Shown here one piece after another: positions 9,853 through 56,278 of a DNA stretch of 64,000 nucleotides (the first letter of the stretch is position 1; every line of letters begins with the position of its first letter). The notes under the pieces were generated by a model. It searched no databases. It was given only the letters and a program-made list of their open reading frames with translations, and was not told the origin of the DNA. Source of the stretch: Ferrimonas balearica DSM 9799 (GTDB lineage: Bacteria > Pseudomonadota > Gammaproteobacteria > Enterobacterales > Shewanellaceae); the NCBI RefSeq assembly GCF_000148645.1, contig NC_014541.1, positions 1,798,001 to 1,862,000 of the forward strand, written 5' to 3'. Made by a program: the position numbers and the translations under genes.

Positions 9853-9877
9853 TCTGGTGTTGCGATGAGCAGACAAC

Positions 9878-9905
9878 AAAAAAGGCGCCGATTGGCGCCT
9901 TTTTC
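9878..9905. terminator. Bidirectional intrinsic terminator
   Basis: aaaaaaggcgcc / gatt / ggcgccttttt between the convergent retropepsin and cold-shock genes. Confidence 0.9.
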
Positions 9906-9923
9906 TTCGCGGGTAATAACCAA

Positions 9924-10133
9924 TTAGATCTTGGTTACGTTAGCCGCTTGCGGGCCTTTCGGGCCTTGCTCGATATCGAAAGATACCTGCTGACCTTCAG
10001 CCAGAGTTTTGAAACCGTCACCCTGAATGGCACGGAAGTGTACGAATACGTCAGCGCCGCCGTTGTCTTGAGTGATGAAGCCGAAGCCTTTGTCTTCGTT
10101 GAACCACTTCACGGTACCAGTTGCTTTGGACAT
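9924..10133 (-). CDS. Cold-shock domain protein (CspA family)
   Basis: 69 residues, single cold-shock domain with RNP1 KGFGFI and RNP2 DVFVHF, starting [16 protein letters not shown]. It binds single-stranded RNA/DNA and melts RNA structure. AGGAG lies 5 nt before the ATG; an upstream in-frame extension to 10271 is rejected. The gene is followed by a terminator and has a long AT-rich leader of more than 100 nt, as is common for csp mRNAs whose 5' UTR controls expression; I could not identify a classical cold box. Confidence 0.95.
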
Positions 10134-10360
10134 GATGTCTCCTGAATAAAATAAAAAATTAAACACGCAATTTGTGCCCAACCTACTGAGCTTAGCAGTA
10201 AATCCGGACAATGAGCGCTTCAGACAACATGACTTAACAGTAAAGCAATGGAGCGAAGTGTTCAGTTTCAAATTGTTGCGTATGCTCGGCCCTGGGGCCG
10301 AACAAGCTGCACTATAGCACCCCGGGGCCGGGGGTACACCCTTTATTGGCCTGAAAACGA
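10134..10360 (-). promoter_or_regulatory. Long upstream/leader region of the csp gene
   Basis: About 230 nt without a gene. It is AT-rich close to the csp start and then contains an inverted repeat tcggccc(t)ggggccga at about 10287-10302. Probably holds the csp promoter and a structured 5' UTR; no consensus promoter stands out. Confidence 0.4.
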
Positions 10361-53452: not shown

Positions 53453-55372
53453 ATGCGCCTCTATATTGCTGAAAAACCGAGTCTTGGCCGGGCCATTGCC
53501 GCGGTGCTGCCTAAGCCCCACCGAAACGGCGATGGCCATATTGTGGTGGGCAATGGAGACGTCGTGACCTGGTGCATCGGCCACCTGCTGGAACAGGTTG
53601 AGCCGGAGGCTTATGACGCACGGTACCAGCGCTGGGCGTTGTCAGACCTGCCCATTCGGGTGGACAACTGGCAGCTGAAGCCCCGCAAGGGGGGCGCGAA
53701 ACAACTGCAGGTGATCAAAAAGCTGCTGAAGCAGGCCACTGATGTCGTGCACGCCGGCGACCCGGACCGGGAAGGGCAGTTGCTGGTGGACGAGGTATTG
53801 GATTATCTGAAGTTGGATGACGCCCGACGCCACTCGGCCCGGCGTTTGCTGATCAGCGACCTCAACCCGGCGGCGGTCACCCGTGCGCTGAAAGGGATGA
53901 AATCCAACCGCGAATTTGCCCCACTGTCGGTGTCCGCGCTGGCCCGTTCCCGGGCTGACTGGCTTTATGGCATGAACTTATCCCGCGCTTATACCCTGTT
54001 GGGGCAGCAGGCGGGCTACCGTGGGGTGTTGTCGGTCGGGCGGGTGCAAACGCCGGTTCTGGGGCTGGTGGTACGCCGCGATGAGGCGATCGCCAACTTT
54101 GTGGCCAAACCGTTCTACCAGCTGGATGCGCTGATCGAGCATGACAGTGGGGTGATCCGGGCGCGTTGGCAGCCCAGCGAGGCGTGTCAGCGCTGGCTGG
54201 ATGAGGAGGGCCGTTTGTTGTCCCGCGGTCTGGCGGAAAACGTGGCGTCGCGGATCGCCGGACAGCCCGCCACGGTGGTGACCTCCGAACATAAGGAGAG
54301 CAGCCAGGCGGCGCCGCTGCCGTACTCGCTGTCGGCGTTGCAGATCGACGCCAACAAGGCGTTCGGGATGAACGCTCAGGAGGTGCTGACCCTGGCCCAG
54401 TCGCTGTATGAAAAACACAAAGTGATCACCTATCCCCGCTCCGACTGCCGTTACCTGCCTAAAGATCACTTCGCCGAAGCCGGTGCCGTGACTCAGGCCA
54501 TCGCCCGGTGCTTGCCGGAGCTGGATGGCGCGGTATCGGGGGCGGACCTTAAACGTCGCTCCCGGGCCTGGAATGACAGTAAAGTCACCGCCCACCACGC
54601 CATCATCCCCACCCCTAAAGCGGTGGCGCCACACAGCCTGTCCGGCAAAGAAGCGAAGCTGTATGGACTGATTGCGCGCCAATACCTGATGCAGTTCTAT
54701 CCGGCGGCGCAGTACGCCGAGTCGAAACTGGTGTTCACCATCGGCAGTGGCCATTTTGTTGCCAAGGGCAAGGTGTTGCGCCAGCCGGGGTGGCGGGCTT
54801 TGCTGCCGAAAAAGCCGGAGGCGGAATCCCGTGCCACGTTGCCGGAGCTGGCGCCGGGCAGTCAGTGGCCCTGTCGTGGTGGTGAGATTAAGGATTGCAT
54901 GACCGAGCCGCCAAAAGCCTTTACCGAGGCGACGTTACTGCAGGCGATGACGGGGATCGCCCGGTTCGTGCTGGATGACACCCTTAAGGGGATCCTGCGG
55001 GAAACCGATGGGCTGGGCACCGAAGCTACCCGGGCGGGGATTCTTGAGTTGCTGTGCAAACGGGGGCTGTTGCGGCGGGAGGGCAAAACCCTGCGCTCAA
55101 CGCCATCAGGGCAGGGCTTGATTCATGCTTTGCCGGAGCAGGCCAGCTACCCGGATATGACGGCGCATTGGGAACGCAAGCTGCAGGACATTGCCGAACG
55201 GGAGTATGGCTATGCCCCCTTTATGGCGGATCTGGACCAGCGCCTGCTGGCTTTGGTCACTCAGGCCCAGCAGGGTGGGGTGCCGCCTTCGCTGCGCAAC
55301 CTGCCTGCGGTGGCGCGCAAAGCGCCGGTGCGGCGGCGTCGTAAAACGGCAAAAAAAACGCCATCTCAGTGA
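53453..55372 (+). CDS. topB: DNA topoisomerase III
   Basis: 639 residues (E. coli TopB 653). Type IA topoisomerase: TOPRIM start MRLYIAEKPSLGRAIA, DPDREGQLL acidic triad (HAGDPDREGQ), LSVGRVQTP, and active-site Tyr in VITYPRSDCRYLP. It decatenates and unlinks DNA, acting with RecQ. C-terminal tail basic (RRRRKTAKK), without zinc fingers. The predicted terminator of a small RNA on the opposite strand overlaps the stop codon, and topB's own terminator is 60 nt further on. Confidence 0.95.
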   Translation: MRLYIAEKPSLGRAIAAVLPKPHRNGDGHIVVGNGDVVTWCIGHLLEQVEPEAYDARYQRWALSDLPIRVDNWQLKPRKGGAKQLQVIKKLLKQATDVVHAGDPDREGQLLVDEVLDYLKLDDARRHSARRLLISDLNPAAVTRALKGMKSNREFAPLSVSALARSRADWLYGMNLSRAYTLLGQQAGYRGVLSVGRVQTPVLGLVVRRDEAIANFVAKPFYQLDALIEHDSGVIRARWQPSEACQRWLDEEGRLLSRGLAENVASRIAGQPATVVTSEHKESSQAAPLPYSLSALQIDANKAFGMNAQEVLTLAQSLYEKHKVITYPRSDCRYLPKDHFAEAGAVTQAIARCLPELDGAVSGADLKRRSRAWNDSKVTAHHAIIPTPKAVAPHSLSGKEAKLYGLIARQYLMQFYPAAQYAESKLVFTIGSGHFVAKGKVLRQPGWRALLPKKPEAESRATLPELAPGSQWPCRGGEIKDCMTEPPKAFTEATLLQAMTGIARFVLDDTLKGILRETDGLGTEATRAGILELLCKRGLLRREGKTLRSTPSGQGLIHALPEQASYPDMTAHWERKLQDIAEREYGYAPFMADLDQRLLALVTQAQQGGVPPSLRNLPAVARKAPVRRRRKTAKKTPSQ

Positions 55373-55419
55373 GATGGCGAAACAACATTCAATAAATGCA
55401 GGGAGATGATGATGTCCTT
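55351..55419 (-). ncRNA. Candidate sibling sRNA C (nearest topB)
   Basis: Predicted RNA of about 69 nt starting near 55419 with AAGGACATCATCATCTCCC. It holds the 16-nt core TCATCATCTCCCTGCA shared with two neighbouring units, an AU-rich linker, and a terminator hairpin cgccatctc / act / gagatggcg with T8. No open reading frame of note. The core is complementary to a GGGAGATGATG-type ribosome-binding site, so base-pairing with mRNA leaders is the likely role. The terminator overlaps the end of topB on the other strand. Function inferred. Confidence 0.75.
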
Positions 55420-55425
55420 GCATAG

Positions 55426-55453
55426 TCAGGCAATCGCCCCGGCCAGGAGTTCC
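55426..55453 (-). promoter_or_regulatory. SigmaE-type promoter of sRNA C
   Basis: Minus strand GGAACTC (55453-55447), 15 nt, GCCTGA (55431-55426). SigmaE consensus in E. coli is close to GGAACTT N15-16 GTCTGA/TCAAA. Slightly weaker than the other two promoters. Confidence 0.65.
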
Positions 55454-55473
55454 CTGCCGGGGCGATTTTTTTC
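55432..55473 (+). terminator. Intrinsic terminator of topB, with nested minus-strand promoter
   Basis: Perfect 12-bp stem aatcgccccggc / gccggggcgatt with 12-nt loop, then T7. The loop holds the -35 of the opposite-strand sRNA promoter (gagttcc at 55447-55453). Confidence 0.9.
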
Positions 55474-55514
55474 GTTTTTTGTTTGCCCGAGTTGGGTGGG
55501 GCTGGGAAAAGAGC

Positions 55515-55586
55515 AAAAAAAACCGCCCAATCCAAGGGCGGTGAACGAATTCGTCAATGAATTTGCAGGGAGATGATGAATTCCTT
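55515..55586 (-). ncRNA. Candidate sibling sRNA B (middle)
   Basis: Predicted RNA of about 72 nt starting near 55586 with AAGGAATTCATCATCTCCC. Same 16-nt core TCATCATCTCCCTGCA, then AAATTCATTGACGAATTCG, and a terminator hairpin accgccc / ttggatt / gggcggt with T8. The piece TTGACGA[A/G]TTCG is also found in unit A, so A and B are the closest pair. Function inferred. Confidence 0.8.
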
Positions 55587-55592
55587 ACAGGG

Positions 55593-55620
55593 TATGACTG
55601 GGCGGTTCAGACAAAGTTCC
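55593..55620 (-). promoter_or_regulatory. SigmaE-type promoter of sRNA B
   Basis: Minus strand GGAACTT (55620-55614), 15 nt, GTCATA (55598-55593), then 6 nt before the predicted start. Perfect -35. Confidence 0.75.
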
Positions 55621-55659
55621 CAATCGAAGGACATTTTTTGCGGATGCAGCGAAACGGGC

Positions 55660-55730
55660 AAAAAAAAGCCGCCAAGGGAAGTGGCGGCTGGCGAACTCGT
55701 CAAAATTTGCAGGGAGATGATGATTCACTT
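55660..55730 (-). ncRNA. Candidate sibling sRNA A (nearest the SixA-like gene)
   Basis: Predicted RNA of about 71 nt starting near 55730 with AAGTGAATCATCATCTCCC. Same 16-nt core, then AAATTTTGACGAGTTCG, and a terminator hairpin agccgcc / acttccctt / ggcggct with T8. Function inferred; the U8 end and single-stranded C-rich core fit an Hfq-dependent riboregulator. Confidence 0.8.
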
Positions 55731-55736
55731 ATTGCT

Positions 55737-55764
55737 TATGACTGGGGCGTTGGCGGGAAGTTCC
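55737..55764 (-). promoter_or_regulatory. SigmaE-type promoter of sRNA A
   Basis: Minus strand GGAACTT (55764-55758), 15 nt, GTCATA (55742-55737), then 6 nt before the predicted start. Same layout as unit B. Confidence 0.75.
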
Positions 55765-55828
55765 CAGCCGCGCTAAAAATTCCGTCGTAACCGTGAATAT
55801 GGGGCGCAGGAAGCGCCGGAGGGTAAGC

Positions 55829-56278
55829 ATGAAAGCGCTGTTACTGGTGCGTCACGCCAAATCAAGTTGGCGCCATAAAGCGCTGGCGGATCTTTATCGG
55901 CCGCTGTCTGGCCGGGGGTATCGGCAGGCGCTGGGGATCCGGGCCCGTCTGCCGGTCGAACCGGAGTTGTGGCTGTGCTCACCCGCGGTGCGGGCTTACA
56001 GTACCGCGTTGCTGGCCGGCGCGGCGCCGCTGCAGCTGGAACCCGCGCTCTATCCGGGGGACGTCAACGCCTGCCTGAGTTGCCTGGATGGGTTGCCGGA
56101 CTCGCTCAGCCGGGTGGCGATGGTGAGTCACAATCCGGGACTGGAAGCGCTGGCAGAGCGGCTGTCCGGACAGTCGCTGGTATTGAAAACCGCTGAGATG
56201 GTGCTGCTCTGTTGGCAGGGAGAGTGGCAGAGTTGGCGGATGGGGGTGCAGATCACCCCCATCCGACGCGAGGATTAA
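55829..56278 (+). CDS. SixA-like histidine phosphatase
   Basis: 149 residues, short histidine-phosphatase fold. Catalytic motif LLVRHAKSSW (His9) in place of the RHG usually seen, LSGRGYRQALGI, LCSPAVRAYSTA and VSHNPGLEAL (second His). Such proteins dephosphorylate phospho-histidine proteins (SixA acts on ArcB HPt or PtsN-type carriers) or small phosphate esters. ATG 55829 follows GGAGGG at 55818-55823. The stop overlaps the convergent pdxY by 4 nt. The upstream region is shared with sRNA unit A. Confidence 0.88.
   Translation: MKALLLVRHAKSSWRHKALADLYRPLSGRGYRQALGIRARLPVEPELWLCSPAVRAYSTALLAGAAPLQLEPALYPGDVNACLSCLDGLPDSLSRVAMVSHNPGLEALAERLSGQSLVLKTAEMVLLCWQGEWQSWRMGVQITPIRRED

Follow-up and report, generated by a model that had tools for sequence, protein, structure and literature searches.

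A tandem array of three putative sigma-E-type small RNA genes in Ferrimonas balearica and its predicted outer-membrane targets

Three tandem units downstream of topB

We analysed a stretch of 64,000 nucleotides from Ferrimonas balearica DSM 9799 (contig NC_014541.1, positions 1,798,001 to 1,862,000 of the forward strand; hereafter the window, in whose numbering positions are given unless a genome coordinate is indicated). On its minus strand, a preliminary description had pointed to three tandem units, each composed of a sigma-E-type promoter, a common 16-mer and an intrinsic terminator. All of these elements were found as described, together with the proposed spacing of the units, the layout of the -35 and -10 elements, the AAG starts, the T8 ends and RNA lengths of 69 to 72 nt. 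We read the array as genes for MicA-like sigma-E small RNAs (sRNAs), probably amplified in tandem.

The units start at 55764, 55620 and 55453 (units 1, 2 and 3; spacing of 144 and 167 nt) and follow one plan: GGAACTT or GGAACTC, 15 nt, a -10 element (GTCATA in two units, GCCTGA in one), 6 nt, AAG, the 16-mer TCATCATCTCCCTGCA, a linker, and a GC stem with T8. In unit 1, the sigma-E-type -35 element GGAACTT (55758..55764), which agrees with the promoters of rpoE in 14 genomes, is followed by the -10 element GTCATA (55737..55742) and by a predicted sRNA of 71 nt (55660..55730), with the exact 16-mer, hereafter the seed, at 55723-55708 and an intrinsic terminator of an 8-bp stem and a T-run at 55660..55689. 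Unit 2 has the same -35 and -10 elements (55614..55620 and 55593..55598), a predicted sRNA of 72 nt (55515..55586), the exact seed at 55579-55564 and a terminator with a 7-bp stem and a T-run (55515..55542). In unit 3, the -35 element is GGAACTC (55447..55453) and the -10 element is GCCTGA (55426..55431), the latter being GTCTGA in three aligned orthologues; the predicted sRNA of 69 nt (55351..55419) carries the exact seed at 55412-55397 and a terminator with a 9-bp stem and T8 (55351..55379). The GC stems with T8 thus end at 55660, 55515 and 55351, respectively.

The predicted RNAs of units 1, 2 and 3 folded better than their own shuffles, with z values of -2.96, -2.53 and -3.05. The CUCCCUGCA part of the seed was open in all three (unpaired probability of at least 0.76), and the UCAUCA part was partly closed in the predicted folds. 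In the complete genome of 4,279,159 bases the exact 16-mer occurs at three places, all of them in the array; besides the array, there is one place with one mismatch and nine with two, and the reversed 16-mer, used as a control, had no place in the same genome at up to two mismatches. The promoter pattern, which for the shuffle test was formulated after the units had been seen, occurs three times in the window; the average over 40 shuffles was 0.175, and none of them had more than two.

The array is flanked by a topB-like DNA topoisomerase gene (53453..55372, plus strand; Topoisom_bac, 353.5 bits) and by a histidine phosphatase gene (55793..56278, plus strand; His_Phos_1, 31.5 bits), for which the name SixA was taken over from the preliminary description. 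The 3' end of unit 3 overlaps the final 22 bases of topB on the opposite strand, and this overlap would suit 5' leaders or antisense regulators of the adjoining genes. We regard such a role as extremely improbable: every unit is closed by a terminator of its own, topB and sixA are encoded on the plus strand, the minus strand downstream lists only open reading frames (ORFs) antisense to topB and then a LysR-type gene from 53277, and the neighbours differ in other clades. On the plus strand, a 17-nt inverted repeat (55432-55475; 88% complementary, 2 nt apart) is followed by a T-run and is perhaps the terminator of topB. It includes the -35 element and spacer of the unit 3 promoter, and the orthologues of unit 3 do not have the same spacer.

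Distribution and conservation in the genus

A search for the 16-mer with one mismatch in 96 genomes of the family gave matches in 18 genomes, not all of which were units. Several matches in genomes of another genus of the family (g2), which we take to be Shewanella, as well as those in genomes G007 and G031, had no promoter and hence were not counted as units. We fetched the corresponding stretches from 13 same-genus genomes, in which a script listed 44 units; one of them belongs to a class with a 5' hairpin, leaving 43 array units at one to five per genome. In these, GAAC is invariant and the -10 element stands at a fixed distance in 42 of 43, the remaining unit having one extra base. At this place T is present in 41 and C in all of the 42 units of a tally that left out the hairpin-class unit and the extra-base unit.

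From 42 units of the 13 genomes we built a covariance model, R2, which includes the promoter; the underlying alignment (A2) holds 42 of the 44 units, one near-duplicate and the one of the 5'-hairpin class being left out. A covariance search of the genus had been among the checks proposed beforehand, and R2 found matches in 14/14 genus genomes, with best E values from 1.8e-20 to 1.2e-7; G033, a genome absent from the building set, scored E = 1.2e-7. In a scan of named genomes, seven stretches were found, three in this group and four in unrelated lineages, which we took as chance.

The preliminary description had named the conservation of the 16-mer relative to its flanks as the comparison on which the sRNA idea could fail. 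The seed proved invariant at 16/16 positions in the orthologues of unit 1 (three genomes) and of unit 3 (four genomes), in contrast to 5/15 and 1/15 invariant positions, respectively, in the promoter spacer. In the 3' part, 27/40 (unit 1) and 28/38 (unit 3) positions were invariant.

It had also been proposed that the stems differ among the units with their pairing kept. On the three copies alone this was weak, but the 42 genus units showed covariation in the terminator stem: 28 cells were changed on both sides, versus 10.5 +/- 2.7 in shuffled data, and every slid version of the stem had fewer such cells. When pairs, or pair types, with a double change were counted instead, the totals were not clearly above the shuffles (67/500 and 136/500), and the paired fraction of the stem was 84.7%, a value lowered by misaligned rows. 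RNAalifold, applied to the alignment of 42 units, gave no consensus pairs, and the test of a named structure was therefore limited to the terminator stem.

The array lies between topB and sixA in the genome studied here (G000) and in G018, G021 and G029. In other genomes its place is different, for example near the DAHP synthase and inositol monophosphatase genes in G025, near threonine dehydratase in G002 and near aconitase in G015. The description of a triplicate set between topB and a SixA-like gene is true locally, but the set is a part of a genus-wide, multi-copy family of siblings at several chromosomal places, with three copies here and up to five array copies in relatives, a common seed, and a promoter and terminator in each. 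Tandem copies whose number and chromosomal place vary between clades could also be produced by a mobile or repeat element (REP- or MITE-like) that carries a promoter and terminator by chance. This is very unlikely, as no terminal inverted repeats were found around the units, with no search aimed at transposases, the seed, promoter and terminator are kept while the spacers drift, and the exact 16-mer is confined to the array in its own genome.

The promoters resemble those of rpoE

GAACTT and TCTRA are sigma-E elements. Upstream of rpoE, all 14 genus genomes carry ACGAACTTT, with AGTCT spaced as in the sRNA units. Because the rpoE promoters match the unit promoters, sigma-E is the likely driver of the array. 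As in MicA, the array has a sigma-E promoter as judged from sequence, with the -35 element, the spacing and the -10 start that are found at rpoE throughout the genus. The proposal that these are sRNA genes with sigma-E-type promoters thus holds as the best reading of the sequence.

Resemblance to MicA and to other sRNAs

The preliminary description had not recognised the family, and no Rfam family reached its gathering score at the array. With the MicA family (RF00078), unit 3 obtained 18.5 bits, against a cut-off of 41, and units 1 and 2 had no match at E <= 10. The highest scores below threshold included those of anti-hemB (RF02837, 28.6 bits) and Hrs13 (RF02631, 24.9 bits), which resemble the units in their CUCCCUG-like stretches and terminators; their gathering scores of 49.5 and 52 are, however, far above. 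When Rfam was run on 15 relative loci (8 from g2 and 7 from the same genus), only three tRNAs were named.

The units are similar to MicA in their sigma-E-type promoter, their terminator, a pairing stretch like UCAUCAUCCCUG and a length of about 70 nt, and R2 matches MicA loci. In 345 genomes of the order, R2 had matches at E <= 0.01 in 117, many of them weak; this is not a count of family members, because weak and terminator-only matches are included. RF00078 had matches in 8 of 148 genomes, and in 8/8 of these an R2 match covered the same place. This agreement, together with the shared promoter and size class and the close likeness of the seed to that of MicA, is what would be expected if the units were diverged true orthologues of MicA and not a separate family reusing the promoter and seed. 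We consider such descent possible, although we lean against it: the RF00078 scores are low or missing as given above, under stricter filters RF00078 had no match in the own genome, in G002 or in the eight listed g2 genomes, the array lies next to the topB-like and histidine phosphatase genes and not at luxS-gshA, and the R2 scores at the MicA loci are supplied in part by the promoter. Orthology with MicA overlaps with our reading of the units as MicA-like siblings, which would fit either line of descent.

MicA is, in contrast, one gene at luxS-gshA, whereas the units here form a tandem array, score below the Rfam cut-off and have predicted targets that include multihaem cytochromes. The classic target of MicA is ompA, and MicA has been described as confined to Enterobacteriaceae apart from one partial match (PMC4618604), so that the array, if read correctly, would extend the MicA type beyond that group. 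VrrA and MicV of Vibrio cholerae and RybB are likewise sigma-E sRNAs with a common seed-pairing domain that repress outer-membrane proteins (PMC7602753). The likeness to them lies in the presence of several sigma-E sRNAs with a common seed; neither VrrA nor RybB was among the 31 Rfam matches at E <= 10 in the array. In Listeria monocytogenes, LhrC1-5 are multi-copy sibling sRNAs of the envelope-stress response whose CU-rich loop pairs with Shine-Dalgarno regions (PMC5880928); they share with the array the sibling copies and, as predicted for the array, the link to envelope stress and the Shine-Dalgarno pairing, but differ in their Gram-positive host and in their control by LisRK.

In the g2 genomes, the same promoter and seed recur in RNAs many of which continue with a CUAGCGC block. 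G043 (locus L314) has a run of six promoter-terminator units, of which five contain the seed. Tandem sigma-E-type sRNA genes with the same seed were thus noticed in g2 at L314, at L231 (G040) and at L315 (G067); L314 and L315 had no Rfam match. In another family (f6), the short RNA-like units at L219, L232, L224 and L240, in which a GAACTT promoter goes together with UUUUCCCU, UCUCCCUG or AUCCCUG, are perhaps more distant members.

Predicted targets among outer-membrane proteins

Outside the array, the own genome has 11 exact copies of the seed complement GGAGATGATGA (11 bases), and 3 of the 11 lie on translation starts, by reading of the frames. These belong to the multihaem lipoprotein P0001, which has a cadherin-like domain; to P0002, an OmcA-type cytochrome (OmcA-like_N, 90.3 bits with a cut-off of 27; TIGR03507, 204.1 bits versus a cut-off of 209.3, on a fragment of 350 aa); and to P0003, a barrel protein with an OmpA domain (PF01389, 60.2 bits with a cut-off of 21) that falls short of a full OmpA. 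The energies of predicted duplexes with the three array sRNAs were compared with those of 290 background genes of the own genome; the energies ignore accessibility, and the starts were picked by a simple script, some of them visibly wrongly. Relative to this background, P0001 ranked at 0, P0002 at 3.1% and P0003 at 0.3% (-25.0 kcal/mol at its start site), the last being, again, a gene chosen through the seed.

As an unselected set we took the six other relatives of P0001 and P0002 in the own genome, found by protein similarity, whose picked starts were all in frame with the protein match. Two of them, with -28.1 and -26.9 kcal/mol, beat all 290 background genes, and a third reached -23.4 kcal/mol (0.7%), so that 3/6 fell in the top 1%. 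At some cytochrome sites both halves of the seed can pair, UGCAG upstream and AUGAUGAUGAA at the start. An ATGATG start is present in 4 of the 290 background genes, and runs such as UGCAGAGGAAUGAUGAUGAA are found at several cytochrome sites. One cytochrome start (L268) was ambiguous between two codons, and the first alone was scored.

Across 13 genomes, 12/19, 14/24 and 6/9 genes of the three target families ranked within the best 5% of the background from the own genome, and P <= 0.05 by shuffled sRNAs was obtained for 13/19, 15/24 and 5/9 of them, versus 7 of 100 background genes. This count left out 11 of 63 loci, namely three genes of G033, a genome that supplied no array sRNA set, five matches that start far inside the protein and three distant barrel relatives. 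Porins as main targets were rejected: among the eight with a clear start, none was in the best 5% (the nearest at 5.5%) and no convincing site was seen, while a ninth had a wrongly picked start. The best predicted targets are multihaem outer-membrane cytochromes together with the OmpA-domain protein, and not the porins.

Several results weigh against cytochromes as targets. The remaining unselected cytochromes had -19.8 (10.7%), -11.1 (77%) and -8.0 kcal/mol (95%), the last two showing no pairing. The counts from 13 genomes are not independent tests, because the genes are related, the three founders were picked through the seed and the background is entirely from the own genome. We found no sign of co-evolution, as the targets of a clade paired no better with its own sRNAs than with foreign ones (47 targets, P = 0.42). 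In g2, the OmcA/MtrC genes (L284-L313) have an ATGATG start in 23/30 cases, versus 1/59 neighbouring ORFs, yet their pairing with the conserved g2 sRNA was weak: 3/30 ranked in the best 5%, and 5/30 stood out from the shuffles. Since ATGATG is frequent there although pairing is weak, the ATG-run starts may be older than sRNA control, or independent of it.

These observations bear on a narrower explanation, in which the units would be classic sigma-E sRNAs that act on envelope mRNAs, among them that of an OmpA-type barrel, whereas the complementarity to cytochromes would come from purine-rich Shine-Dalgarno sequences joined to ATG-run starts. The OmpA-domain site, the Shewanella-type ATG-run starts that lack strong pairing and the missing co-evolution between clades are all in agreement with it. 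We nevertheless think it rather unlikely, since several cytochrome sites outrank the background genes, most of which likewise have a Shine-Dalgarno site, since some of these sites pair with both seed halves, and since porins had no convincing sites.

Proposed mode of action

Taken together, we assign a probability of about 0.72 to the reading in which the units are separate genes for trans-acting sRNAs of about 70 nt, MicA-like siblings that are driven by sigma-E and repress outer-membrane protein mRNAs. Judging from the promoters, each unit would be transcribed from its own sigma-E promoter, and each RNA would end at its own terminator, a step for which the sequence evidence is strong. The predicted RNA would present the pairing stretch UCAUCAUCUCCCUGCA near its 5' end, with the CUCCCUGCA part in a predicted loop, then the linker and the terminator, whose long U tail would be like that of Hfq-binding sRNAs. 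Upon envelope stress, sigma-E would raise all copies at once. The seed would then pair with the Shine-Dalgarno and start region of outer-membrane protein mRNAs, a step for which the computed duplexes lend support in several genes; the main targets would be the OmpA-domain barrel protein and multihaem outer-membrane cytochromes of the OmcA/MtrC and cadherin-domain types. By analogy with MicA and its kin, translation would be blocked and the mRNA would decay with the help of Hfq, and the multiple copies may raise the dose or widen the control.

A further-reaching proposal, which we hold only tentatively and at slightly less than even odds, is that the sigma-E response shuts down extracellular electron transfer through arrays that repress several outer-membrane multihaem cytochromes at once by pairing across the Shine-Dalgarno site and start codon. 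The ATG-repeat starts would then belong to the docking site, and envelope damage would set the respiratory surface of the cell. If this is true, the envelope-stress response would be tied to extracellular respiration in bacteria with OmcA/MtrC-type cytochromes. Sigma-E sRNAs are a known kind; the targeting of cytochromes would be the new part. The natural series of one to five array copies also raises the question of why bacteria multiply sRNA genes.

In the literature on Ferrimonas, Shewanella and sigma-E sRNAs, with supplements and most subscription papers outside its scope, RyhB was the sole sRNA that we found tied to OmcA/MtrC-type cytochromes. In Shewanella oneidensis, RyhB lowers cytochromes including MtrA and MtrC; it is under the control of Fur and iron, and omcA was excepted from its control by the authors (PMC5826389). 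RyhB thus resembles the array as an sRNA acting on cytochromes, but differs in its Fur and iron control and in the exception of omcA. No such sRNA was found in passages of an sRNA screen of Shewanella piezotolerans (PMC5471319), whose supplementary table of trans-sRNAs lies outside that scope, or in passages of PMC4214671, PMC3575234, PMC13414033 and PMC11045786.

Further RNA-like units

At L070, L073, L074, L077, L079 and L083, further classes of unit flank the array; they combine a GAAC-type promoter with a hairpin ahead of the seed, e.g. AACAAAUUU..AAAUUUGUU. In the own genome, a further sigma-E-type sRNA gene with the seed UUCAUCAUUAUCCUCC lies at G000:C1:958188-958292 on the minus strand (L326); it is kept in G018, G021 and G029, with a diverged copy in G002. 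About 29 kb beyond the window, at G000:C1:1890938-1891055 on the minus strand (L327), two adjacent units with GAAC promoters and terminators have other seeds, CACUUCCCUGCA and CCAAUCAUCG; units of this type are also present in G018 and G021, and three such units in G029. Within the window, positions 9875-10267 on the minus strand match the cspA thermoregulator leader (Rfam RF01766) with 107.9 bits.

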